A stretch of 23,577 nucleotides of DNA, from positions 1-23,577 of IMG/VR virus record IMGVR_UViG_3300001450_000319. One strand, written 5' to 3'. Shown here piece after piece: positions 4,533 through 23,577 of this stretch (positions are counted from its first letter, which is position 1; each line of letters begins with the position of its first letter). Source of the stretch: a virus. A program made the translations under genes and the position numbers. The notes under the pieces are model-generated. The model did not search any database and had not been told where the DNA came from. It saw only the letters and a list, made by a program, of their open reading frames with translations.

Positions 4533-4798
4533 CAGTTAGTATCCAATTGGTCCAGTCTTTGTTTGATCCATGTTAAATCTGTTCGTATTTCAGATAGTTG
4601 CTCAACAATTGTTAATCTGAAGTTTTCTGTTTCATCAATTCTGATCGATACTTCTACTACGTCTCGTTCGATTTGAGATATCTTCTGAGTATATGTAGCA
4701 TCCTTTACAGCAACTTGCCAAATAATGGTTAATAATGTTAGGGCCCATCCCAGAAAAATCGCGATTGTTCCTATCTGGGGTTTTCTATTATTTGTCAT
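4532..4798 (-). CDS. Small membrane protein with TM helix and coiled coil
   Basis: An 88-aa protein when started at the ATG at 4798, preferred because TAAGGAC lies about seven bases upstream and the gene then overlaps the end of the large upstream gene by only 11 bases; an in-frame ATG at 4870 would add a residue stretch lying inside that gene. One TM helix (about 11-30) is followed by a heptad-rich segment (about 37-85, with regular Ile/Val/Leu and Asp/Glu/Arg). TM plus coiled coil recalls XhlA-type phage lysis accessory proteins, though in XhlA the order is usually coiled coil then TM. It could instead be an inner-membrane or tail-associated protein. Confidence 0.6.
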   Translation of the reverse strand: MTNNRKPQIGTIAIFLGWALTLLTIIWQVAVKDATYTQKISQIERDVVEVSIRIDETENFRLTIVEQLSEIRTDLTWIKQRLDQLDTN

Positions 4799-7616
4799 CA
4801 GTGTCCTTATCTTTAGATGTACATTTACAGTCTTTTTTGGATTTGTTGGGTGGCTTTGGTGTGTACCCAATGATTGAGCTATATGGTGTATCTTGTAGAT
4901 ATTTCTGTAGTAATTCTAAGGATCCCATAAAACCAGCACCATGATCTTCTTTTATTCTTTTTTTGCTACCCGAACCGTTTCGTTTTCTGTTGCTACTTTC
5001 GTCTTCAAATCCAGCTATTACACCATCTTTGTGGGAAGCATCTTTACCATCACCATTACCATGAGTGCCTTTTTCGCGGTTATACTTCTGTAGTTTGGCT
5101 CGGTATTTTTTTCTCTTCTTCTGGTAGCAGTACTCTGAGTCAGATCCGGTTCCGCATTTTCCCTTTTTGTACTTACGGACCTTTCTACCTTCCACAATAG
5201 TTTCATTGAATATTGCATCAATGTAATTGTAATCATCCATGATGTCCTGTGCATCTCGTTCGACAGGAACTCTAAATCTCTTACCATCAACTGTTATTAT
5301 ATTGTACTTATCGGCTTTCTTATCATTTAGAACTGTGGTGTTTATTGGATCAATGTCGATTGCTTCTACTCCAATACTAAAGAATCGCATAACATCAAGA
5401 ACACTATTGAAGCTCTGGATTGCTTGTTGCACCATTGTTCTAAGAGATTGTGTCGTTTCTACGTCTGAAAATTGTGCTTGTGCTGGTTCTTCTTGTGTTC
5501 CTGCAAACGGATCAGTAGTGCCAACAAGATCAGAATTGGAATTACCAGCACCATCAAGAGAGAAGTCTGATGTTACATCATAGTCTCGTGAACGGAAAGA
5601 AAGGTCATCAACGTCGAGTGTATCATCCATAGTCGCTGTCAGAGCGCGTAGATAGTCTATGAAGGTCGTACCATCAGTTTCCTGTGTTTCGATTCGTTCT
5701 TCTATATCCGCAGCAGAAAAGATTATGTTTACATTTGCAATTCTTTCTAATCGCGAAATGTATGCATCGGTAATTGGCTGCACCTGAGTGTTTGTACCAT
5801 CTTTGTTGGTCGAAAGTATATGAGAGGCTGTAGCAGTTGAATCTGGACCAAATTTAAGTTCTCCTGTTAATACTTCCTTCAGGATAGCTCTCTTAAGGTA
5901 TTTGTCCACAGACATATAATCCTCAATTTTACCAGCGATTTCATCATAGATGCGAGTTGCTTCTGAATACACATCTTCTTTACCTTCTTTAATTGTTCTT
6001 CCACTAGACTCTAACGACGAGAAGGTTTGGTTGATTTTAGATTTCAGATCAGCGGTGAGCTTCTTTACTTCTTTTCGTTGGGTGAATGGGGTGACCATTC
6101 CCAATGATGACATTGTGTTGAAAAGAGTAGTTGCTTCCCCGGGGATCGTGGGCATTAGTTGCTGCTTTCCAGCAACAACATTTGCACGAATGAAGTCATT
6201 TGTTGCGGGATTCATAAACACGAGGTCTGCCTTTGGCACGGCATCCTGTCCACCGTTCTGTGCCCATTCTGGGGTGAGCTGACTAACATTTGCTGCATTA
6301 TCATATGCAACGTAGTCTGGTGGAATTTCTTGTATAAGTGAATCAATCACTCGTTGTGCTGCTGGTGCGAGAGTTTCACTGACATTCATCATTTCAGCTA
6401 CGTCGGGAGAAATACCACCATCCATTGGGTTTCTTCCTGTTGCCATATTCCATGCCATAACTGCACCACCAATGAGTTGTCGGGGTTGGTGATCCCAGTC
6501 TGGGTTGGTTGATGCTTTGTCGGTGATCATCCTTCCATCACTTGGCATTCTTGGCATTTCCATATCAGGAGATATCATTTCGCCGCCAACTGGGGCAGGA
6601 GCACCACCAGCATTTCCGGGTGCCTGAGATGAACCAACGTCAAGATCCTTTGGATCACTTACACCAAACATCTTAAGGAGTTTGTTTGAAGTCTTTGATG
6701 CTTCAAATTCTGGTTCTTGCATGACACTGAATGCAATTTGTGGTGTCATTTCACCCATGGGGGGTGCATCTGGCATGTTACCAACAAGGATTTCTTGGAA
6801 ACTTGGATTGAAATCTGCTTTTGGTACAATTCGGATCTTGTTATCCTGTGCGTTTCTGATTACGAGAAGCTCAGGCCATGGATTTGTTTCTGCTTGTTTT
6901 CTTGATGCCTGTCTATCAATTCGCTTTCTATCTCGTTCTTGAGTTTCTTGTCCATAGTCCGCACCACCACGCATGGTATCCATTGCCATGTTCTGTGCAG
7001 TATATGTGTCTTGCTCAAAGAGATATTTCATTGGAAGGAATGCTTCGTAGAAAAGATCAAGCTCCTCTTGGTCCGAAAATAATTCATTCGTTAGATTGAA
7101 TTCTTCCATTTGACTTTGTAGATCAGCATACATTTGTCTGGATTGTTTCTTTGACATGAGAGTTGGTGTCATACCACTAAAGTCTCCATATCGTTTTTCT
7201 TTTGCTGCTGTTCTGGCACCAGAAGCGGAAATGTTTTCAATTTCTCCACCTTCTCGTTCACCAGCAGATACAACATTGTAGTTGTCAAATTTGAAGTCTT
7301 TGTGTGACCCAATTCGTTCAAATTCATTTACTCTATCGGCACCTACAACTACAGTTACGTCCTTGTATCCGTTATCTTGTAGGTGTGTGAGTGCGTGGAA
7401 TGGGGATGGTTGGGATTGAATATTTGCATCGGGGAATGAGGATTTCATATAACTTCCCTTTTGGTCCGGCGAAAGGGGATTTCGTTTAGGATCGTGTGTT
7501 TGACTGGTAAACACATGATGATCATCATCACCAGCGAGTTCCTTCACCTTATTGATGAGCTTTTCATGGCCGCGGGTGGGGGGATTCATTCTACCAAATG
7601 TAATAGTTGTCTTCAT
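4788..7616 (-). CDS. Nucleotidyltransferase-like domain fused to a long virion-type protein
   Basis: A 942-aa protein when started at 7616, which has GGAG about five bases upstream and places the enzyme fold at residue 1; an ATG at 7646 lacks a ribosome site and lies inside the promoter. Residues 1-150 are a HIGH-superfamily nucleotidyltransferase: TFGRMNPPTRGH (6-17, a T/HxGH motif), VGADR (91-95) and ISASGAR (129-135, the ISxTxxR-like motif), as in NMN adenylyltransferase or cytidylyltransferase relatives. The remainder holds acidic, Gln/Met/Pro-rich linkers, a helical region with ILKEVLTGELKFGPDSTATA recalling a T4-like cyanophage virion protein, and a basic Cys/Lys/Arg C-terminus. Substrate unknown; it may be a structural protein with a captured enzyme domain. 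First gene of the late operon, behind a T4-type late promoter. Confidence 0.75.
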   Translation of the reverse strand: MKTTITFGRMNPPTRGHEKLINKVKELAGDDDHHVFTSQTHDPKRNPLSPDQKGSYMKSSFPDANIQSQPSPFHALTHLQDNGYKDVTVVVGADRVNEFERIGSHKDFKFDNYNVVSAGEREGGEIENISASGARTAAKEKRYGDFSGMTPTLMSKKQSRQMYADLQSQMEEFNLTNELFSDQEELDLFYEAFLPMKYLFEQDTYTAQNMAMDTMRGGADYGQETQERDRKRIDRQASRKQAETNPWPELLVIRNAQDNKIRIVPKADFNPSFQEILVGNMPDAPPMGEMTPQIAFSVMQEPEFEASKTSNKLLKMFGVSDPKDLDVGSSQAPGNAGGAPAPVGGEMISPDMEMPRMPSDGRMITDKASTNPDWDHQPRQLIGGAVMAWNMATGRNPMDGGISPDVAEMMNVSETLAPAAQRVIDSLIQEIPPDYVAYDNAANVSQLTPEWAQNGGQDAVPKADLVFMNPATNDFIRANVVAGKQQLMPTIPGEATTLFNTMSSLGMVTPFTQRKEVKKLTADLKSKINQTFSSLESSGRTIKEGKEDVYSEATRIYDEIAGKIEDYMSVDKYLKRAILKEVLTGELKFGPDSTATASHILSTNKDGTNTQVQPITDAYISRLERIANVNIIFSAADIEERIETQETDGTTFIDYLRALTATMDDTLDVDDLSFRSRDYDVTSDFSLDGAGNSNSDLVGTTDPFAGTQEEPAQAQFSDVETTQSLRTMVQQAIQSFNSVLDVMRFFSIGVEAIDIDPINTTVLNDKKADKYNIITVDGKRFRVPVERDAQDIMDDYNYIDAIFNETIVEGRKVRKYKKGKCGTGSDSEYCYQKKRKKYRAKLQKYNREKGTHGNGDGKDASHKDGVIAGFEDESSNRKRNGSGSKKRIKEDHGAGFMGSLELLQKYLQDTPYSSIIGYTPKPPNKSKKDCKCTSKDKDTDDK

Positions 7617-7645
7617 TCCAACTCCATAAGAGATTGTGCTATTCA

Positions 7646-7653
7646 TATTTATA
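7646..7653 (-). promoter_or_regulatory. T4-type late promoter, TATAAATA
   Basis: The minus strand reads TATAAATA exactly, the T4 late-promoter -10 octamer. It ends 30 bases before the ATG at 7616, leaving a leader of about 24 bases with a GGAG ribosome site. It overlaps the T-tract of the terminator ending the upstream unit, so transcription stops and restarts at the same spot. It implies a phage-encoded gp55/gp33-like late sigma and co-activator elsewhere in the genome. Confidence 0.7.
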
Positions 7654-7686
7654 AAAAAATGTCGGAGAGCCTTGCGACTCTCCGAC
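7651..7686 (-). terminator. Rho-independent terminator of the nuclease/42-aa gene unit
   Basis: On the minus strand GTCGGAGAG (7686-7678) pairs perfectly with CTCTCCGAC (7669-7661) across an 8-base loop, followed by ATTTTTTTAT (7660-7651). A 9-bp stem with a seven-T run is a strong intrinsic terminator. It ends transcripts coming from 8942 and 7922. Confidence 0.85.
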
Positions 7687-7692
7687 CTTACT

Positions 7693-7778
7693 GTGTCGAG
7701 TAAATGTATATGAAATAGGGTTGAACTGCTGGATCACCTCCTACCTGTGTGCAAAAGAGTTGCTAAACAACTCGACAC
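7693..7778 (-). ncRNA. Structured 3' UTR or small RNA candidate carrying a 16S-tail complement
   Basis: GTGTCGAGT (7693-7701) and ACTCGACAC (7770-7778) form a perfect 9-bp stem closing 68 bases. A local hairpin, GAGTTG (7757-7762) with CAACTC (7768-7773), shares bases 7770-7773 with the long stem, so the two folds exclude each other. The enclosed segment holds AGGAGGTGATCCAGC on the minus strand (7742-7728). With the terminator at 7651-7686 right after it, the minus-strand product would be a folded RNA of about 130 bases at the end of the 42-aa gene's message. No start codon lies at usable distance after the AGGAGG. The assignment as RNA is inference; both strands fold equally. Confidence 0.4.
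7728..7742 (+). other. 15-base match to the 3' end of bacterial 16S rRNA
   Basis: GCTGGATCACCTCCT on the plus strand equals the near-universal end of 16S rRNA including the anti-Shine-Dalgarno CCTCC. On the transcribed (minus) strand it becomes AGGAGGTGATCCAGC, a 15-base perfect partner for that rRNA tail. It belongs to no gene I can find. The preceding bases AC (7726-7727 with T) extend a repeat shared with 538-550. Confidence 0.75.
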
Positions 7779-7793
7779 GATAAGAAATGTTCT

Positions 7794-7922
7794 TTAGTCC
7801 TTATTCCATGGGAGGAATTTCTTGACCCAATTCCAAAGTGGAGTACCAATTAATGCACCTGCTACGAAAACTATCACACTGTAAAATACTGTTCCTAAAA
7901 TTCCGCTAAATGGTTCTGGCAT
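7794..7922 (-). CDS. 42-aa single-TM membrane protein
   Basis: The minus strand from 7922 reads ATG-CCA-GAA to a TAA at 7796-7794, giving MPEPFSGILGTVF followed by a hydrophobic helix (about residues 8-30, SVIVFVAGALIG) and a Trp/Lys-rich tail ending WNKD. GAGGAG lies about nine bases before the ATG, a strong ribosome site, and the gene follows the NUMOD-like gene by four bases. An uncharged helix with a basic C-terminus fits a small inner-membrane protein; such proteins include pinholins and lysis regulators, but nothing specific identifies this one. I do not recognise the family. Confidence 0.7.
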   Translation of the reverse strand: MPEPFSGILGTVFYSVIVFVAGALIGTPLWNWVKKFLPWNKD

Positions 7923-7926
7923 TGTT

Positions 7927-8280
7927 CTACTCCTCTATCTTTGAGCACTTGTGGTGCTTATGATGATTTCGCTTTCCGTTCATGACCAAATACATGGTAG
8001 ACTTGTTTAAGTTATTCTCTCTACAGAATTTTGAGAGGTTGTCTATAGTAACTTGTCCACCATCAGGTTTCGTAATTATGTATAAAGGTTTTTGATTGGC
8101 AACTTCATTTTTTTCCTCTTTTATAGTAGCCTTTTCATACCACTGCCAAGATTTACCATTATTTACGAATTCCCCACCATTTTGTTCGATGAATTTTTCT
8201 CTCCAGCGAGGTGCATAGCTATCCTCATTGCACCGAACCCATTCACGGGTATTTGGAATATTAATATATGATTTGTTCAT
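7927..8280 (-). CDS. NUMOD-like DNA-binding protein without nuclease domain
   Basis: A 117-aa protein. Residues 1-50 hold aromatic-rich sequence (WRCNEDSYAPRWREKF-type, then SWQWYEK). Residues about 66-112 form a modular unit: YIITKPDGG, VTIDNLSKFCRENNLNKSTMYLV, then a NGKRNHHKHHKC end. This Asn-Leu/Phe-Cys helix-turn-helix followed by a Gly-Lys and His-rich end is the repeat attached to GIY-YIG and HNH homing endonucleases of T4-like phages. No GIY-YIG or HNH catalytic motif is present, so it is either a free-standing DNA-binding protein or a remnant of a homing endonuclease. Its start overlaps the PD-(D/E)XK gene by four bases (ATGA), so it is co-translated with that nuclease. Confidence 0.6.
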   Translation of the reverse strand: MNKSYINIPNTREWVRCNEDSYAPRWREKFIEQNGGEFVNNGKSWQWYEKATIKEEKNEVANQKPLYIITKPDGGQVTIDNLSKFCRENNLNKSTMYLVMNGKRNHHKHHKCSKIEE

Positions 8281-8942
8281 GCAAACAGCCCTAAACTTTC
8301 CTTATATTCTTCTATTGTGTCATGAAGTTTCTTTGCATATTGTAGGGGGCTACCCTGAAATACTTGCGTTGTACCATCTTCACAACTTATTAGAATTTTG
8401 AATTTTTTGATCTCCGTACCAGTTCTATCTTGCCACATAAGAGCATATGCAGTAGCTTGTAGGAAATAATTTTCAATATCAGAGGTCCGCTTTCTTCGCG
8501 TTGCTCCCTTGAAGTCGATGATGCTTAATTCACCATCATGCTCTGCAACACAGTCTACACGTCCTGCCAATCCCACAGATTCACTCCAGAGGGGAACTTC
8601 AAGTGCAACAATGTTGTCTATCTTGTCTAGTTCCGGCTGAAGCTGTAGGAAGAGTTCTAGGATGTCTGGGCGGACTTCTGACTTGTCTCTATCAACCTCA
8701 AACTCATTGTTCAGATAATTTTCGATGAGACTATGGAAGGTATTACCACGGGTGGTGACCCGTTTCGCTTCCTTTGGATTCTCTGCACGCCATTTTGCAA
8801 AGAATTTGGATTTTTTAAATCCAGTAACTGTTGTAACACTGGGCAACTTGCCATTGGGGGTAGAATAATATCTGCCACCTTCGTTGGTGGTGGTGGCAGA
8901 TATTTCTTCTAATAATGGGGAACTAACATGTGTAAATTTCAT
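8277..8942 (-). CDS. PD-(D/E)XK nuclease (RecB/Cas4-like exonuclease of T4-like phages)
   Basis: A 221-aa protein. RGNTFHSLIE (65-74) gives the upstream Glu; GLAGRVD (125-131, Asp130), IIDFKG (Asp143, Lys145) and a QATAYA helix (from Gln162) are the RecB-like nuclease motifs in order, all intact. The N-terminal pattern (a Tyr-Tyr-x-Thr-Pro-Asn-Gly, then SVTTVTG) matches the phage exonuclease family that would degrade or process DNA ends during phage recombination or host DNA breakdown. A TTGATT-16-TATAAT promoter ends six bases before the ATG and there is no Shine-Dalgarno, so the message may be leaderless. It heads a short unit with the NUMOD-like and 42-aa genes. Confident of the fold; biological role inferred. 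Confidence 0.85.
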   Translation of the reverse strand: MKFTHVSSPLLEEISATTTNEGGRYYSTPNGKLPSVTTVTGFKKSKFFAKWRAENPKEAKRVTTRGNTFHSLIENYLNNEFEVDRDKSEVRPDILELFLQLQPELDKIDNIVALEVPLWSESVGLAGRVDCVAEHDGELSIIDFKGATRRKRTSDIENYFLQATAYALMWQDRTGTEIKKFKILISCEDGTTQVFQGSPLQYAKKLHDTIEEYKESLGLFA

Positions 8943-8948
8943 ACTATA

Positions 8949-8976
8949 ATTATACCAAAAATAAACAAAAAATCAA
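8949..8976 (-). promoter_or_regulatory. Sigma70-type promoter before the PD-(D/E)XK nuclease
   Basis: Minus strand: -35 TTGATT (8976-8971), 16-base T-rich spacer, -10 TATAAT (8954-8949). The -10 ends six bases before the ATG at 8942, placing the expected start of transcription at or next to the start codon. The same hexamers with the same spacer occur at 22208-22235. Confidence 0.65.
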
Positions 8977-8994
8977 GAAATTACAAAATTAAAA

Positions 8995-9324
8995 TTAAGG
9001 CGTGTATTTTTGAGCTAATTCGCCAATTAGTCTCACTCGTTCTTTTTCGTCAAGATTCTTGATGTTTTCTGCAATATAACCACTAAACGCTTGGATTTCG
9101 GTATCGCTTAGGCGTCGTTTCATTGCATCTTCTGCAATAAGAACGGTATCGGCAACATATTCGACAATTAGGTTGTCAATATTGCCAGCGAGTTTATCTT
9201 CGTTGAGTAGTTCAGCCGATTCGGTTAGATTCTTTTCTTCTGAAATTCCATGAGATTTAGTATAGATGCTGATTGCAGTCTTTGCTAAGTCTCTGTTGAT
9301 TTTACTGTCGTATTCGTAAGACAT
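8995..9324 (-). CDS. Uncharacterised 109-aa helical protein
   Basis: Started at the ATG at 9324, which has AAGGAA about eight bases upstream; an in-frame ATG at 9354 is possible but has a poorer site. The protein is acidic and predicted helical throughout: YEYDSKINRDLAKTAISIY, then ESAELLNEDKLAG, VEYVADTVLIAEDAMKRR and LDEKERVRLIGEL. No TM, signal or catalytic motif is visible, and I do not recognise it. It follows three genes for low-complexity virion-like proteins and precedes the nuclease promoter, so it is the last gene of that unit. It could be a small assembly factor or chaperone; that is a guess. Confidence 0.6.
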   Translation of the reverse strand: MSYEYDSKINRDLAKTAISIYTKSHGISEEKNLTESAELLNEDKLAGNIDNLIVEYVADTVLIAEDAMKRRLSDTEIQAFSGYIAENIKNLDEKERVRLIGELAQKYTP

Positions 9325-9392: not shown

Positions 9393-9995
9393 TTAACGGA
9401 AGAACGATCCCCCACCGCCCTTTGCAAGTTGCTGTCGTAAATCGTCTACATTTTTGTACAGATCTCCTGCAATCATTGATCCAAGACCACCAGCAGCAAG
9501 AGCAAGACCCTTCTTTCCAGTTGCGGCTCCCAGAGCACCACCGGCGGCACCAGCACCAAGTAGTCCAGCACCAGTTGTGGGTCCACCCTTCCATCCAGCA
9601 TATGCACCACCTGCGCCACCAAGTCCTGCGCCAGCTGCTGCTTTGAGTGCTGTCTTACCGGGACCAAGTAGTCCACCAATAATTCCTTTAGCTAGTTTAG
9701 ACTTTGCAGATCCGCCACTCTTGATACCCTTTTTGATTCCTTGTAGGGTATCACCGAATATTCCTCCGCTTGCCATTCCTGCACCCAAAGCTGCACCACC
9801 GATAGCACCAGCGGCCGCTGCCGGGGCTTTTTGTTGATCAATTGCTTGCTGACCAACACGCATTATAGCCTGTTGTTTAACTTGTGGCATAATGCTAGAC
9901 CAACCTCGAATGGTTGGTTCAATTGTTTTATATGCAAGATTTTTTATACCTTGTACGTGTTCTTCCCATGATTCATCTAATTGAGTCGAGTTCAT
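9393..9995 (-). CDS. Gly/Ala-rich glycine-zipper protein, possible ejected virion protein
   Basis: A 200-aa protein. The N-terminal ~45 residues are amphipathic and Trp-containing (LDESWEEHVQ, then IRGWSSIMPQVKQQ). From about residue 57 to 175 it is dominated by Gly and Ala with GxxxG spacing (GAIGGAALGAGMASGG, GAGLGGAGGAYAG, GAGLLGAGAAGGALG), the pattern of glycine-zipper helices that pack in or against membranes. The C-terminus ends GGGGSFFR. LDE near residues 6-8 is a possible head-protease site. Its ATG overlaps the upstream stop by four bases. This composition fits internal proteins that leave the virion with DNA and insert in host membranes, but no homology was recognised. Confidence 0.55.
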   Translation of the reverse strand: MNSTQLDESWEEHVQGIKNLAYKTIEPTIRGWSSIMPQVKQQAIMRVGQQAIDQQKAPAAAAGAIGGAALGAGMASGGIFGDTLQGIKKGIKSGGSAKSKLAKGIIGGLLGPGKTALKAAAGAGLGGAGGAYAGWKGGPTTGAGLLGAGAAGGALGAATGKKGLALAAGGLGSMIAGDLYKNVDDLRQQLAKGGGGSFFR

Positions 9996-11050
9996 TGTCC
10001 TGTTGCCCTTCGGGTGAGTGCGTTAAGTGCTGTTGCTGCTGGATTGAATCCACTAACATATCCGAGTGTTGATGAAAGTTGTTGTAGTCTTCCCATACCA
10101 CTTTGGGCAGCAGGTCCACCTCCACTGTCTCTGGCTGCTCCCTGTCTTGCGGGATCAGCTACAAGATCCTGACCACCAGTATAATTGGAAAGTGTTCCAG
10201 AGATGCTACCGAGAAGACTTGGTACTGTTGCAATTCCTAAACCAAGTGCAATTGGATTTGCTGCAAGTTTACCTGCTTTGCCAACTGCCTTCTGAAGAAA
10301 TCCTTGTTGCGTGTCGGGAGTATCGTCGGGGGCATCGACAGTATCTTTGTCTTGTTTGCCCTTTTTACCCTTTTTACCCCCCACCAATTTACGAATAACC
10401 TTACCCGCTTCCTGTTTAACTTCATTGAGTTCTTGTTGATCTCTTCTGGTGTAGATTTCAGTGGAGTCGGCCCATGTTGCATATTCCTGTCCGGTGCTTG
10501 CAAGTCTGGTATTGAACATGGACTGTGTTATCATTTTTGCTAACTCATCTGAAATTTTCTTTGATCTGTCATCAGGTTTGTCATCGGGAGTGGTATCAGG
10601 AGTGGTGTCGGGCGTAGTAGCCTTACTAGGATCTTTTGGTGTATCTTGTTCTGATGGTAGGAATGCTGATCCACCAATTGATGCAGTCTGAGCAACAGCT
10701 TGAGGAACTTTACTGGCCACTTTACCTGCTTTACCTACCACGTTACTCACACCAGCAAGTTTTGGGGCGGCTTTCGTTGCAGCTTGGGCACCCTTGGATA
10801 TAAAACTACCAGCACCGGGAAGAGCAGCAACTGTACGCAGACCTGCTTGTCCGTATTGTCCTTGTGCAACATCAACACCAGCACTTAGAGCATCAATTGC
10901 ATCTCCAACAACAGGAACAAACCCAAGCAAATCAGTGTAGTTCTGGATAGTATCAATAGTGCTTCCAGTTCCAGATTTGAACCAATCTTTATGTAAATCA
11001 CCTAATGAATATTCATTGAGTTGATTTCGTATTTCGTCTCTTCTGGTCAT
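9992..11050 (-). CDS. Virion-like protein with hydrophobic pre-toxin-type segment
   Basis: A 352-aa protein. Residues about 40-85 read LGFVPVVGDAIDALSAGVD, then GLRTVAALPGAGS: the VPVVGDAIDAL...GLxxxAxxPGAG phrase is found before toxin domains in polymorphic toxins and in some phage virion proteins, and suggests membrane interaction. A Thr/Pro/Asp repeat linker (TPDTTPDTTPDDKPDD) splits it from a charged middle, followed by KKGKKGKQDKD and another hydrophobic Ala/Gly/Leu segment (about 262-290). No toxin catalytic domain is present. LNE at 11-13 is a possible head-protease site. It overlaps both neighbours by four bases, so three genes form one translational set. Function inferred only from composition and place. 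Confidence 0.55.
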   Translation of the reverse strand: MTRRDEIRNQLNEYSLGDLHKDWFKSGTGSTIDTIQNYTDLLGFVPVVGDAIDALSAGVDVAQGQYGQAGLRTVAALPGAGSFISKGAQAATKAAPKLAGVSNVVGKAGKVASKVPQAVAQTASIGGSAFLPSEQDTPKDPSKATTPDTTPDTTPDDKPDDRSKKISDELAKMITQSMFNTRLASTGQEYATWADSTEIYTRRDQQELNEVKQEAGKVIRKLVGGKKGKKGKQDKDTVDAPDDTPDTQQGFLQKAVGKAGKLAANPIALGLGIATVPSLLGSISGTLSNYTGGQDLVADPARQGAARDSGGGPAAQSGMGRLQQLSSTLGYVSGFNPAATALNALTRRATGQ

Positions 11051-13406: not shown

Positions 13407-14138
13407 TTATTTAGTAAACCAAGGCTGCCAAATGTCATCAGATATATTAATGTTATCGGTACGACGTGCTGCACACTCGTATATTTTATCATCTGAAGTT
13501 GCAAAATGTGTGATAATTCCTATAAGAGCATAGTTCCCGTCTTGATCCTCACAGACTAGGGCACCACCAGAATCACCAAACCAAACAGTAGTTTTGAGTG
13601 GGAGGAATATAACTTCGTTTGGTCTATTTTTTAGTATACCATAGAACCTAAACACATTATCCTTGCTTATTTTCTTATCACCACTACCATGGGCAATCGT
13701 GTGCAGAGGAAACATAGTACCAAGTTTCTCTACATTGTCTATTACTGGCATAGGAGTATGTGTAGATTCAGTGCCGAATACCAACAGACCAATGTCATCA
13801 CCATGCAAGAAGTAATCTTTATGGGTTAACTGCATGTCAATGAGTATCTCTTCTTCGCCAAACTTAACGTATTTAAGATTACCATATTCGATACAATGTG
13901 CAGCGGTTATTGCTATATTTTTAGTGACAAGGACACACGAACCAATAAATTTACCATCTCTATTATACAGTGATCCAGCAGCAGGAATGGTGCTGTGATC
14001 AATGAAGTCGAAATGTAGTTCTGTTTGTGCTTTAGAAAATCCTGATGGACGATCTGTATCGTCTAACTTTTCACGGGATACACAACAAGGTGTTAGGACG
14101 ATCAGCAGTGATAATAGGGCTGATCTTGGGATTAACAT
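13407..14138 (-). CDS. Trypsin-like (S1 family) serine protease, predicted lipoprotein
   Basis: A 243-aa protein. Residues 1-17 are a lipoprotein signal (Arg5, Leu-rich core) ending Leu-Thr-Pro-Cys18. The full catalytic triad is present in chymotrypsin-fold context: ITAAHC (His81), GDDIGLLVF (Asp115) and GDSGGALV (Ser200). Cys68/Cys82 flank the His loop and Cys206/Cys232 lie where trypsins have their conserved disulfides. It would be lipidated and act in the periplasm or at the cell surface, where disulfides form. No Shine-Dalgarno is visible; TATAAT lies four bases before the ATG without a good -35. Substrate unknown: it could cleave host surface proteins, take part in lysis, or exclude other phages. 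Fold and triad are certain; localisation is a strong prediction. Confidence 0.85.
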   Translation of the reverse strand: MLIPRSALLSLLIVLTPCCVSREKLDDTDRPSGFSKAQTELHFDFIDHSTIPAAGSLYNRDGKFIGSCVLVTKNIAITAAHCIEYGNLKYVKFGEEEILIDMQLTHKDYFLHGDDIGLLVFGTESTHTPMPVIDNVEKLGTMFPLHTIAHGSGDKKISKDNVFRFYGILKNRPNEVIFLPLKTTVWFGDSGGALVCEDQDGNYALIGIITHFATSDDKIYECAARRTDNINISDDIWQPWFTK

Positions 14139-15078: not shown

Positions 15079-18000
15079 TCATAAACAATTAGCGTCTGTT
15101 TGTCTACAATTGTAGAGGTTTGCGTTGGTAAATCCAATCATTCTTTCAATATTGACAACAAATGGTTCTCTACTCTTAAATCCAACGGGACCACGGAAGC
15201 CGGATGGTGGGTTAACTCCCTTTAATCCACAGTTTCCGGGATTCGGACTTGCTTCAGGAACTCCTGAGCAGAATTCATATACCTTTCCTAGCATTGGTCC
15301 AGTTCCAGTTTTTACATTTGCATATGTTATACCAGCACCACATAACCAACCAAATTCTTCTGGGCAAGTTGGATCGTCTGCGGGAACACAATCTGTCCAG
15401 AATGGATTCCTAGAAGGTCGAGCAACAAATCGACAATTTGCCATCTTGTTATTCTCTCCATCGTCTGGTTGTCCGGGAATTCCCTCAGTACCAATAGTCA
15501 TGCTTAGGTTTTTGTTACCAATTTCGTTATCGAAATTGATCGTGTCTTGTTCTGATGCAAATATTGGAACCATGGTTCCTGCAAACTGACCACGTAGACT
15601 GACAGGGGGTGGTTCTAAATCGGGCACTTTTCCTCCACCCCAACCAGTTCCTAGTCTATCATCAACTTGGAAATTGCCAACTCCAAATAGTCTTATTTTT
15701 TCTAGTGATGGATATTTTCTCTTCATCCAGAAGTTTGGCCAAAGTGCATCGTCTGTGTCATTATCAACATATTCTGCGCTTACGCCGGCTAGGGTACCGA
15801 AGTCTGTAGAACTATCTACACCGTCATAATGCTTAAACACAATTCCAGTTTCTGTTGGGGGTAAGTGTAGAGTATCGTTGAGATCCATCTTTGATGCTTC
15901 TTTATCATTCCAATAATCAGCACATTTATCTAACACAGAACCTTCAGGAATTTTATCTGGACTGGGCAATTCGGTGGTGTTTTGTGCGCCACGCGATGGG
16001 CATATGAACTGTGGAATTCCACTAATTGCATAGTTTTCGTTGGGGTCGAATGGGGTGTATACGCGCTGACCAATGTCTCCAATTAGTGGATCAAATCTAT
16101 AACTCAATGCATTAAAGGTTGCATCTCTTTGTAGATTCATGCAATAGCCACCATGGTTTAGTGTTCTTCCAGAACGTATTGCTCGAATAGTACCAAATGT
16201 ACAATCATCATCGGCGCATCTTATTACAGATGTATTGATGTCAGTACCATCGAGACATGCGTTAGGTTGACCCTCCTCCTTGACGGGGCAAGTTTCGTTA
16301 GTCCCATAAGCGCAGACTTCACTCTCAGATATTCCTCCACCACCAACAGTATAAGAAAATACGTGACAACTCATTGGATCTACTCTACCAACCAGAACTC
16401 TCGGAAGTCTGTTGATATATTCATCATCATCAATTGCAATCAGTTCTTGTAACAAACCACATCGTTGGAAGCCGTTTATGTCTGTGATCTGAGAACATCG
16501 TATCTTGTATGGATAGACAGTGACAGTAAATTCTTGCGCTCTTTCATGGAATGCACCACTTACTGTTTCAGATGCATTACTACATATACCGCGTGTATTG
16601 TGGTACCCACTACACTGGGGACAGCAACATCCCCATATAGGATTCGTTTCCGCCCCGAATCTGGCAGGACATGAACCTCCTTGAGAACTATACTTATTCA
16701 GTGTTGAATATACCACAACTCGGAAGGCGGCACTTGATGCTTGGTAGTGCCAGAGAGCACATGTGTCTAGGGCATCGTGCGCACGCATTGCACACGGAGC
16801 ATCCGACAATGGTGCCCATCGAGTTGCTACCCTACCAAACCCCGGAATTAATGGTTGGCACCCGGTAAGTTTTGGTCCTAGACCACCACAACCTTCGTCT
16901 GGGTCTCCGGGTTCACATGAATTTCCACTACATAGTCTACCGCGAATGTAGTTACCACCATCCTCTATACACTCGCGTTCTGTTGTAAAATTCTCGCAGC
17001 TACCATCGGGGAAGCAGCAGTGACTGAACAGCCCTTCTGTGCATGGATTTATTTGTGGTACGTCCGGATTTTCATCTGGACATGGGGCACTGATCAACAC
17101 TCCATCACAATCTTCTGGTCTGTTAACCTGTGTACATTGACCAACCCCCAGGCAACAAGTATATGTCTCTGCAAGACAGTCATCACAACTTCCCCCCTCA
17201 GTCCATACATGAGTCTTGCTTGGACAATTCTCTTGCCATGTGTTATAGCAATCGGGAGTTGGCATTCCCTCTGTTATATTATTATTGCAGCAGGATCCAT
17301 CGGGACCATCCTCTGGGTTTGTACATGGAGGCTCTAAATCTGCACAGTTGGTATTCGGGTAAAAGGTGGCATCATTTCCTATTCCAACGCCCTTGAGACA
17401 CTGAGCTTCACTGAAATCGTCCCCACAGGTATAAATTATACGGTCATCTGGTCGTTCATATGTTTGACACTGTTCATCGTCACCATCCACCCAGCCGTCA
17501 CTACCCGGACCCTGACCATCTCTCCATTCACATTCACAACATGCACCGAAAACTTTGGGTGGTAGACCACACTCAGCAGTTTCACAACTGAAGGCTTGGG
17601 CCTCCCATTTATTGGGTCCGCCGGGATCGCAGAGTGATCCATCTTCACCACAACATGCAACCGAACTAACATCGTCTTGGCACACAGGATTATTTGATTC
17701 CCAATTAAAACAGCAAACACCGTCATAATCACAGCATGGACCATCTGGATTCTCGTCAGAACATGGTGGAAATTCACACAGCTCAGGAGTATTACAAAAC
17801 GTGTTACTGTCGCTACAACTTGCATCACCATAACAACAAATGCAGCCAGTTGTACAGTTACCACCACCTACGCTTCCACATAGCTCAAATGGCTGTGAAC
17901 ATATGTTATCTCCACTACTACTACGAAGTTCTGATCCTATGGTACCAACAATCGATGCATTGTTTGGATAATTCGTTGTCACGAATTCTTGCAACTCGTA

Positions 18001-21000
18001 TGGAGATGCGCTTTTTGCCTCAATGACTTGTTTGTTACGGGATTGTTTGATGTACGCAGTTGCTCGTTTGAATGGATTCTGTCTATCGTATGGATCAAAT
18101 TCCTTACAGCAATTATATGGTGTGACCTTGGGCACAATGCAGCTCGGGTCGTAGCCTACAGCGTTCTCATCCTCACACTCCCCGTATACGGGCCCATCAA
18201 TATTAAGTACGCATCCTTGATAAGCAGCTTGGCAACAGGTATTCGACCCCTCGTCGAGAGGATCTGGGCACTCTTTATTTTGTGAAAATGGTGAACTACA
18301 CCCAGCACATTGAGCGGGAAGGGTATTGCATCTTACTCTTGACGGAAGATCTCTTGGTTGTAACTCCATTGATGGTTCACTATAGCCGCTGTCAACATCA
18401 CTGTATAGTCTTATATTGTTTGGGAATGGTGGGTATGGAGGAATCATGCATGTACCATCATCACTACAGTCACAGCACTGTGATGTATATTCTTCAGCGT
18501 CGGGCCCGACGAAACACGAAAACCCGGACGCGCCGTTACCACCAGTAAGAGTATTCATATTAATTTGATATAGACTTGTTAGCCTACTCAAATTCCAATT
18601 ACCACCGGCACCATTTCCCCAGTTACATGCCCTGTTTCGGGGGGTTGGTCCCCATCCTGTTCCTGACCACGACCAGCCGCCCGGTGTTGCGTGGAAATAT
18701 ATTGGAATGTTTGTATACCATGCCTCAAACAGTTCCTTCTCCCACTCTGGAATCTCAACATCTATACCAGCAACATCATACATTTCTTGTATTGGGTATC
18801 TGAAATTAAACGTACCCCAACTAAAATCGATGGGTATTGATGGACGATCGTTGCCCAACTTCACTCCAGTATTGGTAAGATTGGAATATTCTTCATGCCA
18901 TGGATCGATTCTATCAATAAAGAACCCACGATCATATGATCTTACTTCACCGGAGGCTGGAATTCCCTCGACAGGTGCAGTTATCTGGTAGTCTGACATT
19001 TCTCCAGATAGTTTATATTCATATTGGGCCCCTTCTGTTATCAGGCCAGTTGGATCACTACTTTGTCCTTCTCCCCGCCGAATCTTTTCTTTACCAATCG
19101 ACTGATTGATAAATGCTGACAACATGAATCTATTTGTTTTCTGTACGGGGAGTAGTTCTGCACCGGGACCATAGTTATCAATTGGATCAAGGGGGTCTGG
19201 CTCTCCAAAATTTGGTGTGATGTAACTTCGGATTGCACTTGGAACTTGATAATCGGAAAATTCTCTTGGAACACTATTAGGATTTTCTGAATATATTCTT
19301 GCAAACTCTTCTTCAAGAGTATCATATTTTATAAGTTGATCTTCTCGCCAATCTTTTGCATTGAATCTTCCCGTGTCACCCAGTCTCTGGACGGCTGGAC
19401 CCAGTTGACTACATTCGAATCTAGCCTTTTCCTGACCATCATTCGGTCCCAGTCCATCATCAGGATATGGGCCGTTGTTCCAATATGTTGAAAGTGTAGT
19501 TCTGTCGCCCGGTGAGAAATCAATCGATTCATCTTCTACCAGTTCATCAATTTCATATGAAAACACGGGAACTCCGGCGCACATATAAATCATACCCCAC
19601 GGTCCACCGTGTTGCTTCTGGCATGGTGTATATCCACCCGCAAATGTGGATCTTCTCATTCGCTCATTCACCAGTGGTGGGTGGAACGCAGTGATCTCTC
19701 CTAATTGATTGGGACCGACGGCTATCGGATTGCTTCCTCCACACTCGAATGTTGCACCATAACCAAGAAAATCACATGCGTTTTCAATAACCGCGCCCTC
19801 GGGGGTTGTCCAACCTTCTACGGTTCTGGCGCAACATGACATTTGATTACTATCTTCACCAAAGAAGTGTTCGTTTAGTGCGTAAATATTACCGGGAACT
19901 GCATCAGATTCACCTTCTTCCTTACAACAGTCCGTGCCGTCACCGCCATATATTGGAAATCCAGCAGGATCTGTACCAACTTGCACGTCCGAAGCAATAG
20001 TACACCAGTTATTTGGTATCCATGTGCCGTCGTAGCCAAGGTCACATGTTGATCGAGTTATGTTTTCTAGACAGTTGCCCCATGTAATACAGCAACTACC
20101 TAGTTCTGTGTCTTGTGTGCCTTCTTCACCGAACCCGGTTGTGCATGGATATGCAAATTTATCTTCCCCGGTCTGTAGATAGAATTTATCTGCGCGGACC
20201 CAAAGTCTTGCTCTGTATAATGTACCAACTGTAGTTGTGTATAGGTCTGATACTGCTCCCTCAATCCCATCAACTTGTGGTGCTGAGAAGAGTTTTGCAC
20301 CATCACCAAAGGTTGCAACATCTGCAAGAGTTCGAAGCTCCCGATTGTGTTGCATCATGTAGCACTGCCACGAACTAAATCCTCTTGCACTCAACCCCCC
20401 TCCCGCGCCACCGTTCGACAGTGGGTTGATTGGGTTATGATTGGATCTACAACCACTTCGAATATTCATTAATTCTGGTTCATAGATATCACCCTCGTCG
20501 AGAACTCTGGCATCGTGACTATAGTGCGCTGATTTTAAGTGGGCTTGGAATTCACTAGCGTCACCAATAGTATCCCCATGTATATCCTCTAAATTGTTTT
20601 TATAGAAGTATGGGTTAAGTGGGTTTGTAACTCTCTTCAGTTCCGGAAAGCACATGTAGTTACCATCAGTTGGGTGGGGGATTGTACTTGCACATGCATT
20701 TAAAGGATCGCTTGGGGTGGGTGGGAATCCAAACCGTCTATTTCCGAAGTCATCACTATAGTAACTGTTGCTGGGTGTGGATAGTGGGGGTCGTCCCTCG
20801 TCCCACCATGTATATGGAACACCAACAACAGCAGGCTCGAAGTGCCAATAATCTTTCCAATGAACATATAGAACCGATATCGATTCTTCTTTAACCCTTG
20901 CCCGGTCCTCGTAGGTGTATAGTAATTTTTGATTACATGGACTTGCTGTCTCAGGACACAACGCTTCCTCATCAGTATTGCCTCCCTGACAAAGTTGCTC

Positions 21001-21363
21001 AATATATCCCGCATCGAACCAATCTTTTCTGGAAAAATTCATTACAAGTGCGTGTTGACATAACATACAACTCATACCAGTTGTATTCCATGTGTTTTTT
21101 ACATTAGATCCCGGTGGACCATCAGTTAACTGTGGTCTGTTTGTTCTGTAATACTGGTGGCCAAACATTTCTTGAACATGAGACGCACCCAGCATGAGTG
21201 GATTTATTGCGTATGCAGTGGTTGGTGTTGTTGATCGGTATGATTTACCAAAGGGATCACCCTGTGGTTCCTCTTCCATGTGCCGGAAAATTTTATCACT
21301 GTTGACACAAGAGATTTCAACTCCGGCCACTTCCCCACAACAACACTCCCTCTGCTGACTCAT
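15079..21363 (-). CDS. Giant 2094-aa cysteine-rich modular protein
   Basis: Start at 21363 has AAGGGA just upstream and follows the FmdB stop by one base. No signal peptide is seen. Residues 1-420 have scattered Cys, Trp and Tyr (MSCMLCQHA, HWKDYWHFEP). From about 420 to 1580 there are more than a dozen Cys-Cys modules, for example SCCITWGNC (Cys424-425) and HCCFPDGSC (Cys1449-1450), several followed by a T-x3-C-x3-G-G phrase: the CCxxDGxC-type repeat seen in Planctomycetes and marine phages. About 1580-2094 is a less regular C-terminal region with FRGPVGFKSREPFVVNIERM near its end. Likely a virion surface or fibre protein whose Cys pairs bind metal or form disulfides after release; adhesin or receptor-binding is inference. 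Nothing catalytic is visible. Confidence 0.75.
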   Translation of the reverse strand: MSQQRECCCGEVAGVEISCVNSDKIFRHMEEEPQGDPFGKSYRSTTPTTAYAINPLMLGASHVQEMFGHQYYRTNRPQLTDGPPGSNVKNTWNTTGMSCMLCQHALVMNFSRKDWFDAGYIEQLCQGGNTDEEALCPETASPCNQKLLYTYEDRARVKEESISVLYVHWKDYWHFEPAVVGVPYTWWDEGRPPLSTPSNSYYSDDFGNRRFGFPPTPSDPLNACASTIPHPTDGNYMCFPELKRVTNPLNPYFYKNNLEDIHGDTIGDASEFQAHLKSAHYSHDARVLDEGDIYEPELMNIRSGCRSNHNPINPLSNGGAGGGLSARGFSSWQCYMMQHNRELRTLADVATFGDGAKLFSAPQVDGIEGAVSDLYTTTVGTLYRARLWVRADKFYLQTGEDKFAYPCTTGFGEEGTQDTELGSCCITWGNCLENITRSTCDLGYDGTWIPNNWCTIASDVQVGTDPAGFPIYGGDGTDCCKEEGESDAVPGNIYALNEHFFGEDSNQMSCCARTVEGWTTPEGAVIENACDFLGYGATFECGGSNPIAVGPNQLGEITAFHPPLVNERMRRSTFAGGYTPCQKQHGGPWGMIYMCAGVPVFSYEIDELVEDESIDFSPGDRTTLSTYWNNGPYPDDGLGPNDGQEKARFECSQLGPAVQRLGDTGRFNAKDWREDQLIKYDTLEEEFARIYSENPNSVPREFSDYQVPSAIRSYITPNFGEPDPLDPIDNYGPGAELLPVQKTNRFMLSAFINQSIGKEKIRRGEGQSSDPTGLITEGAQYEYKLSGEMSDYQITAPVEGIPASGEVRSYDRGFFIDRIDPWHEEYSNLTNTGVKLGNDRPSIPIDFSWGTFNFRYPIQEMYDVAGIDVEIPEWEKELFEAWYTNIPIYFHATPGGWSWSGTGWGPTPRNRACNWGNGAGGNWNLSRLTSLYQINMNTLTGGNGASGFSCFVGPDAEEYTSQCCDCSDDGTCMIPPYPPFPNNIRLYSDVDSGYSEPSMELQPRDLPSRVRCNTLPAQCAGCSSPFSQNKECPDPLDEGSNTCCQAAYQGCVLNIDGPVYGECEDENAVGYDPSCIVPKVTPYNCCKEFDPYDRQNPFKRATAYIKQSRNKQVIEAKSASPYELQEFVTTNYPNNASIVGTIGSELRSSSGDNICSQPFELCGSVGGGNCTTGCICCYGDASCSDSNTFCNTPELCEFPPCSDENPDGPCCDYDGVCCFNWESNNPVCQDDVSSVACCGEDGSLCDPGGPNKWEAQAFSCETAECGLPPKVFGACCECEWRDGQGPGSDGWVDGDDEQCQTYERPDDRIIYTCGDDFSEAQCLKGVGIGNDATFYPNTNCADLEPPCTNPEDGPDGSCCNNNITEGMPTPDCYNTWQENCPSKTHVWTEGGSCDDCLAETYTCCLGVGQCTQVNRPEDCDGVLISAPCPDENPDVPQINPCTEGLFSHCCFPDGSCENFTTERECIEDGGNYIRGRLCSGNSCEPGDPDEGCGGLGPKLTGCQPLIPGFGRVATRWAPLSDAPCAMRAHDALDTCALWHYQASSAAFRVVVYSTLNKYSSQGGSCPARFGAETNPIWGCCCPQCSGYHNTRGICSNASETVSGAFHERAQEFTVTVYPYKIRCSQITDINGFQRCGLLQELIAIDDDEYINRLPRVLVGRVDPMSCHVFSYTVGGGGISESEVCAYGTNETCPVKEEGQPNACLDGTDINTSVIRCADDDCTFGTIRAIRSGRTLNHGGYCMNLQRDATFNALSYRFDPLIGDIGQRVYTPFDPNENYAISGIPQFICPSRGAQNTTELPSPDKIPEGSVLDKCADYWNDKEASKMDLNDTLHLPPTETGIVFKHYDGVDSSTDFGTLAGVSAEYVDNDTDDALWPNFWMKRKYPSLEKIRLFGVGNFQVDDRLGTGWGGGKVPDLEPPPVSLRGQFAGTMVPIFASEQDTINFDNEIGNKNLSMTIGTEGIPGQPDDGENNKMANCRFVARPSRNPFWTDCVPADDPTCPEEFGWLCGAGITYANVKTGTGPMLGKVYEFCSGVPEASPNPGNCGLKGVNPPSGFRGPVGFKSREPFVVNIERMIGFTNANLYNCRQTDANCL

Positions 21364-21364
21364 G

Positions 21365-21661
21365 CTATCCCTTCCATCTCTTTCCCGTTTGAGAGGAAGC
21401 GTTATCTAGTCGTTGGTGATATCTTTCGGGAGTGTAGTTCTTCATTTTGCCCATGAGATCATTCCACTGACCACCAGTCTTTTTGTTTGGTGTGAGTTCA
21501 CTGTCAGTTGTCATTAATGGAAATGTTCCGATGTGACGAATTACTTTCTTCTTACCACAATGCGGGCACTTTTCTTTACATGCTTTGTCTCGATTGCCTA
21601 TGCTTGTAAAGATATCCCAAATTTCTTCGCATGATTCACATTTATAATCATAGCTGGGCAT
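21365..21661 (-). CDS. FmdB-type zinc-ribbon protein
   Basis: A 98-aa protein beginning MPSYDYKCESCEEIWDIF, with Cys8/Cys11 and CPHCG (Cys32/Cys35) in the spacing of the FmdB/CxxC-CxxC zinc ribbon, and YDYKCESC matching the family's opening. The C-terminal half is charged and disordered (SELTPNKKTGGQW, then ERYHQRLDNASS). Family members are often annotated as regulators, but the role in phages is unknown. It overlaps the SET gene by 14 bases and abuts the giant gene, so all three share a message. Confidence 0.75.
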   Translation of the reverse strand: MPSYDYKCESCEEIWDIFTSIGNRDKACKEKCPHCGKKKVIRHIGTFPLMTTDSELTPNKKTGGQWNDLMGKMKNYTPERYHQRLDNASSQTGKRWKG

Positions 21662-22163
21662 TAAATTCGTCCGTCACCTTAAACATTTCTTCTTGTTCGA
21701 GTTCAGTTTTTGGATAGAGTCCAGCATAGTTGATGAATAGTTCATCTTCCTTGTGGATTGCTGTTGCGGCTCGGAGTTCAATGATTGCATTGCTGGTGTC
21801 AAACTTGATTTCTGTATTTGGAGTATTGTGATACTGTACAAAAATTAGGTTTCCGGAGGGAACAACGAGGGATGGTCCAACAATCTTGCACGCATCACAT
21901 GAACAGGGTAGAACCGGTAGGAAGTTTGCAAGAAGTTTGCTTCTGGAATCTGGTTCATTGCTCTTGTAGGGTAACACAACGAAACCACATTTTTCGATGA
22001 GTTCGCCTGGCTTGATATTCTTCTTGGCAACTGCAACGTATCGACCATTCTTTTTCAGAACGGTCATTTGGCTGAGTGGGGTAAATCCCTCTTCGAAAAC
22101 AGGGGCATCTTCTTCGCGAGGTGTAGTCTGGTGCTCTAGATCTGATGTGTGCGTTGTTGTCAT
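21648..22163 (-). CDS. SET-domain protein, putative protein lysine methyltransferase
   Basis: A 171-aa protein. The SET core runs from about residue 40: GRYVAVAKKNIKPGELIEKCG (41-60) gives the first strands and the G-E-L-I-E turn; a PCSCDAC triplet (Cys87, 89, 92) may bind zinc; FVQYHNTPNTEI stands where the NHSxxPN cofactor motif is expected; and DELFINYAGLY (about 141-150) matches the E-L-x-x-x-Y end. The N-H pair of the usual motif appears as Gln-Tyr, so activity is uncertain. GGAG sits about eight bases before the ATG. First gene behind a sigma70-type promoter. Such proteins would methylate lysines using S-adenosylmethionine, target unknown. Confidence 0.65.
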   Translation of the reverse strand: MTTTHTSDLEHQTTPREEDAPVFEEGFTPLSQMTVLKKNGRYVAVAKKNIKPGELIEKCGFVVLPYKSNEPDSRSKLLANFLPVLPCSCDACKIVGPSLVVPSGNLIFVQYHNTPNTEIKFDTSNAIIELRAATAIHKEDELFINYAGLYPKTELEQEEMFKVTDEFNAQL

Positions 22164-22238: not shown

Positions 22239-22649
22239 CTAATATCCAGAAGCAGAACCAGCCTGTGGGGAAGCTGCCATCCCAGCAGAAGCAGAACCAG
22301 CCTGTGGGGAAGCTGCCATCCCAGCAGAAGCAGAACCAGCCTGTGGGGAGGCTGCCATCGCTCGAATACTCTTTCTTCGTTCCAACTGATCTGAACTATT
22401 GAACGCCATGAAGTCACTCCTTGCATGACCACCGCGCAATTCATCGGCAGTTGATTCGTCATCAAGATCACCTTGCTTCACATCTATGAAATCAGGAATC
22501 TCCTCGCCTTCGGATTTATGAAGAGCAATTACCTTTTCTCGTTCGAGAGCAGCTTCGTCTTCATCCTTTGTCATACCACCGAGGGCTTTTGTTTTGCCTC
22601 TGGCAACAACAAAATCGTTTTCCGTAATGTATTCTAAAAATGATTTCAT
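22239..22649 (-). CDS. Repeat protein with capsid-targeting-like N-terminus
   Basis: A 136-aa protein. MKSFLEYITE followed by Asn matches the T4 capsid-targeting peptide style (MK-x-Y/F-x-E-F-I-x-E) and carries ITE, an (I/L)-x-E site for the prohead protease. The middle is acidic and charged (KDEDEAALEREKV, EEIPDFIDVKQGDLDDES). The last about 40 residues are nearly three copies of a 13-residue unit, AGMAASPQAGSAS. The profile fits a head-internal protein packed with the DNA. The ATG overlaps the GTPase stop by four bases (ATGA), and there is no own Shine-Dalgarno, so it depends on translation of that gene. Identity beyond this is unknown. Confidence 0.65.
   Translation of the reverse strand: MKSFLEYITENDFVVARGKTKALGGMTKDEDEAALEREKVIALHKSEGEEIPDFIDVKQGDLDDESTADELRGGHARSDFMAFNSSDQLERRKSIRAMAASPQAGSASAGMAASPQAGSASAGMAASPQAGSASGY
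22251..22360 (-). repeat. 39-bp in-frame tandem repeat, 2.8 copies
   Basis: Units start at 22251, 22290 and 22329; the first two are identical over 39 bases and the third differs by one base (AGGCTGCC for AAGCTGCC) before the repeat ends. Each encodes 13 residues of Ala/Ser/Gly/Pro/Gln at the C-terminus of the capsid-targeting-like protein. Near-identity indicates recent duplication. Confidence 0.9.
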
Positions 22650-23577
22650 CTGAGTTTCAACTGTAACTTTCTTTTATCTGACACCGACAATCCACTCACA
22701 AGAGTGAAGAGGCGGAGAGTGTCCTTGTTGTCCTCATAGATGCCACGGTGCAGGGTTGCATTCGGGCAGAGTGAGGAGAGAGTATCGAATCCATATGAAA
22801 GGCTGTCCATCAGCCCTGCGGTGTTCTCCATGATGTCCTTGCCACCCACAGCGACACAGGCAGCAACCCGTGCATCGGAGATGTCAACGTCGCTCAGGAG
22901 AGTCTTCTCGATGTTGGTCTTGACGGCACGCGAGACAGATTGCTCATCCTCGAACTCCTTGAGCTTCGCAACACCCATCACCATGACTCCACCGCACTGG
23001 AGCACGGTAGCATAGTCTGTGGGATCGAATGAGGTGTAGGGTGAGGACTGGTTGGTGAGGACATTGAAGACGTGGAAGAGTCCAGAGATGGTGTTGTTCA
23101 CCGTTGGCCAGAACTTCTTCACCGTGAGTCCCTTGTACATCTTCTCGATCTTGGCATTGTCGAGAATGATGAGGGGTGAGATCTCGTTGTTGACTGCGAG
23201 TTTGTTGGTGGTGTCTAGAACCTCGTGTGCGTTCTTTGCCACCTGTGGAGATCCTGCTTCACCTCTGGTTGGAAGTGACAGGACAACCCCGACGCGCTTC
23301 TCTGGGTTGTCATGCCCGATGTACTTCATGTACTTCTTTGCCACTTCGATGAGGATGTCTGTTGAACCGCTGCCGCTTCCTCCACCGGCACCGATACAGA
23401 CGAAGAGGTGATCCACGTTGTTCCCGTAGATCTTCCTCATCAGGTCGAAGATGTGCTGCTTGTACTTGCTGGCGGCTTCCCGTCCACGGCTCATGTCCTT
23501 CCCTGCTCCCTGCTCACCGACATCGAGCAGGAGCTTCTGTGCCTTGGGAAGATCGAGAGTATCGAGATCCTGATTGG
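22646..23577 (-). CDS. Tubulin/FtsZ-superfamily GTPase (5' end outside window)
   Basis: The frame is open to the window edge, with 27 codons before the ATG at 23494, so at least 309 residues are present and the N-terminus is missing. VGEQGAGKDMSRGREAA corresponds to the T3-side GxGAGxxxxxGRxAA; FVCIGAGGGSGSGSTDIL is the tubulin-signature glycine loop; SPLIILDNAKI follows; FDPTDYATVL matches the FtsZ NxDxxD T7 loop, keeping both Asp residues needed to stimulate GTP hydrolysis in the next subunit, with Asn replaced by Ser. It should polymerise with GTP. Phage relatives include PhuZ and TubZ. GC is near 55% against about 37-40% for neighbours, suggesting acquisition or codon optimisation. It overlaps the next gene by ATGA. 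Confidence 0.85.
   Translation of the reverse strand, partial: NQDLDTLDLPKAQKLLLDVGEQGAGKDMSRGREAASKYKQHIFDLMRKIYGNNVDHLFVCIGAGGGSGSGSTDILIEVAKKYMKYIGHDNPEKRVGVVLSLPTRGEAGSPQVAKNAHEVLDTTNKLAVNNEISPLIILDNAKIEKMYKGLTVKKFWPTVNNTISGLFHVFNVLTNQSSPYTSFDPTDYATVLQCGGVMVMGVAKLKEFEDEQSVSRAVKTNIEKTLLSDVDISDARVAACVAVGGKDIMENTAGLMDSLSYGFDTLSSLCPNATLHRGIYEDNKDTLRLFTLVSGLSVSDKRKLQLKLR

Follow-up and report, generated by a model that had tools for sequence, protein, structure and literature searches.

A TubZ-like tubulin family of T4-type phages and its relatives in planctomycetes

Background

Few phage tubulins have, to our knowledge, been described outside jumbo phages and a small number of plasmid-like phages, and we know of no nucleus-like shell in T4-type phages. 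The closest described systems are TubZ/RepX, PhuZ and FtsZ. TubZ/RepX, the type III partition protein of Bacillus plasmids, has a counterpart in gp138 of phage G and provides the closest solved fold and the best profile match for the gene described here. PhuZ of the nucleus-forming jumbo phages is also a phage-encoded tubulin, and serves as the model for the positioning of DNA and heads (PMC13282480). FtsZ has the superfamily fold and the T4 and T7 loops in common with our protein.

The stretch of DNA analysed here (the window) comprises positions 1 to 23,577 of the IMG/VR virus record IMGVR_UViG_3300001450_000319. The tubulin encoded at its end differs from TubZ/RepX in its T4-type genomic setting, in an acidic, motif-bearing N-terminal tail, in the lack of any TubR or iterons found in our searches, and in sequence (about 24% identity). 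It differs from PhuZ in that there is no significant profile similarity, only a weak structure match, and again a T4-type contig. To FtsZ, both the profile match and the fold match are weaker than to TubZ.

Results and discussion

A truncated tubulin gene at the contig end

The open reading frame 22646-23575 on the minus strand codes for a GTPase of the tubulin superfamily, of which it holds the final 309 residues, and is still open where the contig ends. The missing 80 N-terminal residues are given by L002, a full-length IMG/VR relative which is 98% identical. The features of this region are:

22646..23575, minus strand: tubulin (TubZ-like) gene, residues 81-389 in L002 numbering, with its 5' end past the contig; matches in Pfam, NCBIfam and PDB
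23363..23392, minus strand: T4 glycine loop GAGGGSGSGS, seen in the sequence and conserved in clade A, the clade of the window
23012..23029, minus strand: T7 catalytic loop FDPTDY (DxxD), from the sequence and the family alignment
22646..22649, minus strand: ATGA overlap of the tubulin stop with the downstream start, seen in the sequence; translational coupling possible
22239..22649, minus strand: downstream protein of 136 aa with the N-terminus MKSFLEYITEN and three MAASPQAGSASAG-type repeats, seen in the sequence
22613..23577, no strand: probably an exchanged segment, with 95% DNA identity to L002 as against about 71% in the flank

The window fragment scores 30.9 bits (4e-7) with the Pfam Tubulin profile (PF00091), just under the cut-off of 33 because the gene is truncated; the full-length proteins L002, L047 and L112 pass it with 44.5, 39.4 and 42.4 bits. 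With the NCBIfam ftsZ profile, the fragment reaches 52.8 bits (4e-14), far below the equivalog cut-off of 295 bits, and this shortfall is too large to be sufficiently explained by truncation. The fragment also matches TubZ/RepX in the PDB at 1.5e-13. An earlier note on this DNA had expected an active polymer, as the glycine loop and both aspartates of the T7 loop are kept. These residues are indeed present in the window, and the aspartates (D264 and D267 of L002) are invariant in a family alignment of 32 sequences. In L002, the N-terminal part that the window lacks contains an intact nucleotide loop, GSGQGGGR. By these residues, the gene apparently encodes a competent tubulin GTPase.

Kinship with TubZ

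Profile comparison by means of hhalign ranked TubZ (probability 99.2%, E 6e-20) above FtsZ (97%, E 1e-10) and gave no significant similarity to PhuZ of phiKZ (2%). An AlphaFold model of L002, which is 98% identical over the part present in the window, reached a pLDDT of 86.4 and a pTM of 0.84, with low confidence for the tail (residues 1-37). In a comparison with the PDB, the model matched TubZ with Z-scores of 37.7 (4ei7, 24% identity) and 35.4, CetZ2 with 35.0 and FtsZ with about 31. The best match among predicted viral structures was A0A6J5RW92, annotated 'FtsZ Cell division GTPase' of an uncultured Caudovirales phage (E 2.5e-31), but the identity is 26%; predicted PhuZ structures matched weakly, with TM values of 0.51-0.55. 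The Pfam family TubZ-like_C (PF22453) is passed by L047, a member of the phage clade B introduced below (28.9 bits, cut-off 26), and has no listed match to L002 of the window's clade. In the trees, the window protein pairs with L002 (100/99) within clade A and not with FtsZ, CetZ or TubZ; it nests among phage sequences, apart from a bacterial clade. A PhuZ branch of length 10, which the first tree placed within clade B, is an artefact, and PhuZ was omitted thereafter. The structure prediction and tree against FtsZ, CetZ, TubZ and PhuZ which had been proposed earlier thus lead to a TubZ-like protein outside FtsZ: tree, profile and fold all place it elsewhere than in host FtsZ. Judged by sequence and model, the window protein is TubZ-like, and neither host FtsZ nor PhuZ.

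A family typical of T4-type phages

The close relatives in IMG/VR are L002 (98% identity), eleven loci at 75-83%, one at 48% and one short piece. A first profile-guided scan of IMG/VR found at least 128 relatives, from which 80 loci were kept, and a second scan extended the family to additional clades, the lowest identity to a planctomycete query being 27%. These phage records come from metagenomes and are for the most part fragmentary contigs. The largest group, clade B, is about 54% identical and includes contigs of 172, 179 and 191 kb. When the window protein was compared by tblastn with 50,697 phage records, gp138 of Bacillus phage G (24%) was the sole match.

Genes for gp23-type capsid proteins occur on 22 of 26 long records, on the clade A record G009, where gp20 and gp21 are present as well, and on four records of the second scan. 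Taking the pelagiphage HTVC008M as reference, orthologues of the T4-type core proteins gp4, gp6, gp20, gp21, gp23, gp25, gp32, gp33, gp48, gp53, gp54 and CobS were found on clade A contigs. In the window itself, which is too short, gp23 was not seen. The T4-type setting of the tubulin GTPase, which the earlier note had proposed, is thus borne out by the sequence, the family and the gp23-bearing relatives; the lone tubulin it had envisaged in a T4-like phage is instead a member of a widespread T4-type family. By gene content, this family appears to be widespread in, and typical of, T4-type myoviruses.

The N-terminal tail of the family is acidic, predicted to be disordered, and carries a conserved IPxLxIEDYxP-like motif, which is recognisable in most members; the most distant pair (L194 and L195) is tailless. 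In clade A relatives, the tail comprises 30-70 residues with IPDLEIPDIDLEDYEIP and is followed by the GSGQGGGR loop. The glycine loop of clade B is rearranged to GVSGGSGGGT.

Gene neighbourhood and proposed function

In clade B, the gene order is gp47-like, several small genes, a membrane coiled coil, the tubulin, a membrane protein, two small genes, terminase gp17, portal gp20, protease gp21 and capsid gp23. The upstream partner of about 104 residues has one predicted transmembrane segment and is otherwise charged; the downstream partner (126 aa) has a signal-like N-terminus and a predicted C-terminal transmembrane segment. The upstream one is the direct neighbour of the tubulin in 48 of the 53 loci where this could be tested, the downstream one in 54 of 55; neither had a match in Pfam or PHROGs searches. 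As both membrane partners are missing from clade A, where the neighbours of the tubulin vary (DUF6267 upstream in L005 and L010, other genes elsewhere), conclusions drawn from the operon may not extend to that clade. A search for late promoters detected NATAAATA at most 120 bases upstream of 4 of 12 clade A genes, compared to a background of 2%; three of the four cases are near-copies, which makes the signal suggestive only. Upstream of the clade B tubulin the element occurs in 0 of 56 cases, the gene being located inside an operon.

We consider the protein to be a TubZ-like, GTP-driven filament former of T4-type phages which positions phage DNA or heads late in infection, and assign this reading a probability of roughly 0.6. 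The tubulin would polymerise head to tail and hydrolyse GTP at the interface between the T7 and T4 loops. Late in infection, the filaments might then position replicating phage DNA or trafficking heads in the manner of PhuZ, whose work is likely to be similar by analogy; it is the location of the clade B gene together with this analogy which points to a late role. At least in clade B, the filaments may moreover be tethered to the membrane. The positioning of DNA or capsids, which had been suggested for the window gene before, is plausible on the same analogy. If T4-type phages have a large TubZ-like family of their own, the filament-based organisation of infection would be far commoner and would extend to phages without a known nucleus-like shell. 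With phiKZ gp54 as query, no nuclear shell protein was matched in 13 records, which are incomplete and contain no positive control.

That TubZ of phage G and of Bacillus plasmids is the closest known relative, both by sequence and by predicted fold, would also suit a plasmid-like partition system: during pseudolysogeny, the filament would take care of segregating a phage genome that is not integrated, in the way TubZ works together with TubR and the centromere tubC. Two TubR queries found no homologue among the ORFs of the phage loci; the sensitivity of this search is limited, as one other TubR was recovered at 8e-12 as a control and two more distant candidates were missed. Iterons were not detected either: no 10-mer is present three times within 600 bases upstream. 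Moreover, the clade B gene belongs to the packaging and capsid module, and T4-type phages are typically lytic. For these reasons we regard partition as unlikely.

Homologues in FtsZ-less planctomycetes

A scan of a genome collection yielded cellular matches on two contigs only, both from planctomycete MAGs; bacterial phyla beyond the planctomycetes were covered by a short-pattern scan only. These homologues had not been foreseen in the earlier note. In a profile search, the gene was recovered from 23 of the 118 genomes in the order to which one of these MAGs belongs. For the class, the figure was 8 of 198 genomes; among 392 genomes sampled from the phylum, 5 gave a match, one of them weak and located in a fusion of FHA and tubulin domains. 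Such a fusion of an FHA-like to a tubulin-like domain was observed in L136, another planctomycete genome. The planctomycete homologues show about 50% identity. One copy lies in a contig of 2.96 Mb and others adjoin housekeeping genes, which indicates that they are chromosomal. In L113, two homologues (7446-9128 and 9430-10608) form a tandem pair.

Most planctomycete copies carry a tail of up to about 200 residues, rich in Lys, Arg, Ala and Thr, which is followed by LPTLELEQYEP, the equivalent of the phage N-terminal motif. Among the homologues L113, L129, L118, L130 and L132, most have long, basic tails which resemble histone H1, some with tandem repeats such as TTTKAKAKPRATARKR. Divergent planctomycete paralogues (L125 and L126, also L127 and L137) keep the N-terminal motif as IPELELEHFQP. 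The glycine loop is lost in L125 and L126, whose sequences make them possible pseudo-GTPase partners. The N-terminal motif persists in bacteria, away from phage neighbours, and even in L125 and L126, so that its role probably concerns the filament itself or a partner of wide conservation; it may, for instance, make a contact within the filament.

In 22 of the 23 carriers, PF00091 matches are confined to genes of this tubulin family, and the remaining genome, a fragment, has none; hence no canonical FtsZ was found in the carriers. This is in line with planctomycetes being without FtsZ (PMC6952346, PMC5147048). Phycisphaerae divide by a process resembling binary fission, and it has been asked which other protein drives it (PMC6952346); a GTPase of the right fold is a candidate division protein in those Phycisphaerae that carry the gene.

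The planctomycete homologues form a single clade (100/100), which joins clade A (94/91; 74/95 when the tree was reduced) inside the phage family. An AU test of phage monophyly with the bacterial clade outside, whose groups were named after the first tree had been seen, rejected this hypothesis with TubZ, CetZ and FtsZ as outgroups (p 0.016) but did not reject it with L194 and L195 as the only outgroup (p 0.21). By these trees and tests, a transfer from phage to bacterium, and with it a phage origin of the planctomycete tubulin, is favoured without being proven. Going further, FtsZ-less planctomycetes may have taken up a T4-type phage tubulin, added a histone-H1-like tail and put it to use as a cytoskeleton for nucleoid segregation or division, with the phages as reservoir; to this tentative scenario as a whole we would give somewhat less than an even chance. 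The spread among T4-type phages, together with closest cellular relatives in bacteria without FtsZ, opens a new branch of the viral cytoskeleton to study.

The same relatives bear on the idea, already raised in the earlier note as interference with FtsZ, that the phage tubulin takes over the host by co-polymerising with FtsZ or displacing it, thereby blocking division. FtsZ belongs to the same superfamily and is the target of small proteins of other phages. However, the similarity to FtsZ is distant, the full catalytic apparatus, needless for a poison, has been kept, and the nearest cellular homologues occur in bacteria without any other PF00091 match, so that we think such a take-over improbable. 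The protein could also be a non-polymerising GTPase of tubulin fold which acts as a switch or is associated with the virion, given the disordered acidic tail, the altered glycine loop of clade B and the loss of this loop in a planctomycete paralogue. Yet both T7 aspartates are invariant in the family alignment, as expected of a protein whose GTP hydrolysis takes place between the subunits of a polymer, and this option appears quite improbable to us compared to a filament former.

Base composition and segment exchange

The tubulin gene of the window has a GC content of 0.53 and a GC3 value of 0.677, as against 0.33 ± 0.06 (sd) in the other window genes (z about 6); the contrast in base composition is thus stronger than had been estimated in the earlier note. 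The GC3 of the tubulin is also raised in contigs G001 and G002, which carry L002 and L003 (z 2.6-2.8), whereas z was between -1.2 and 1.5 in all other contigs tested. The foreign-looking composition therefore holds for the subgroup of the window; other family members have a normal GC3.

Compared to L002, four-fold sites are kept to 84% in the tubulin segment and to 26-59% in the other genes. The gene order of this sister contig is identical and the tubulin is found at the same place. On these sequences, the simplest reading is that the segment was probably exchanged recently by recombination between related phages, and the odd composition would be the mark of this exchange and not of a host gene. 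The similarity between window and L002 does jump near 22613; a chimeric join near 22650, which had been named as a possible flaw if combined with placement in host FtsZ, is unlikely because L002 is collinear, and the tree places the protein away from FtsZ. Compared to an exchange, it is less likely that both contigs have an assembly artefact in common at this position. Contamination by host FtsZ was ruled out by tree and synteny. That a cellular tubulin gene was joined by assembly error or recently acquired from a bacterial host, as the GC3 (0.68 against 0.33) and the similarity jump might suggest, is very improbable in view of the shared position in L002, the normal GC3 of most other members of clade A and of clade B, and the nesting with L002 among phages, away from the bacterial clade.

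The downstream gene and other genes of the window

The ATGA overlap of the tubulin with the gene 22239-22649 is present as the earlier note had described it. The start MKSFLEYITEN of the 136-aa protein resembles the starts of other proteins of these phages and T4 capsid-targeting sequences (CTS). The protein is 31% identical in L002 and was not found in other contigs; hence the look of a capsid-targeted neighbour stands with regard to the CTS-like start, but the protein is no conserved partner of the tubulin. In the clade A phages G002, G006, L005 and L010, several proteins start with MK(S/T/N)F..(F/Y)(I/L).E, which likewise resembles T4 capsid-targeting sequences.

Rfam and tRNA scans of the window gave no matches. 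Positions 1-507 encode a fragment of a porin-like outer membrane beta-barrel (weak match to Pfam Porin_4); a porin gene also exists in HTVC008M. A trypsin-like serine protease is encoded at 13407-14138. A Cys-rich protein of 2094 residues (15079-21363), without a PHROGs match, is 35% identical in the collinear sister contig, where most of its neighbours are more conserved. The SET-domain protein at 21648-22163 is conserved near the tubulin in the sister contigs L002 and L004. The protein of 952 aa encoded at 4788-7646 has a cytidylyltransferase-like N-terminal domain and a homologue in HTVC008M; in L005 and L010, a homologue of this protein adjoins the tubulin.
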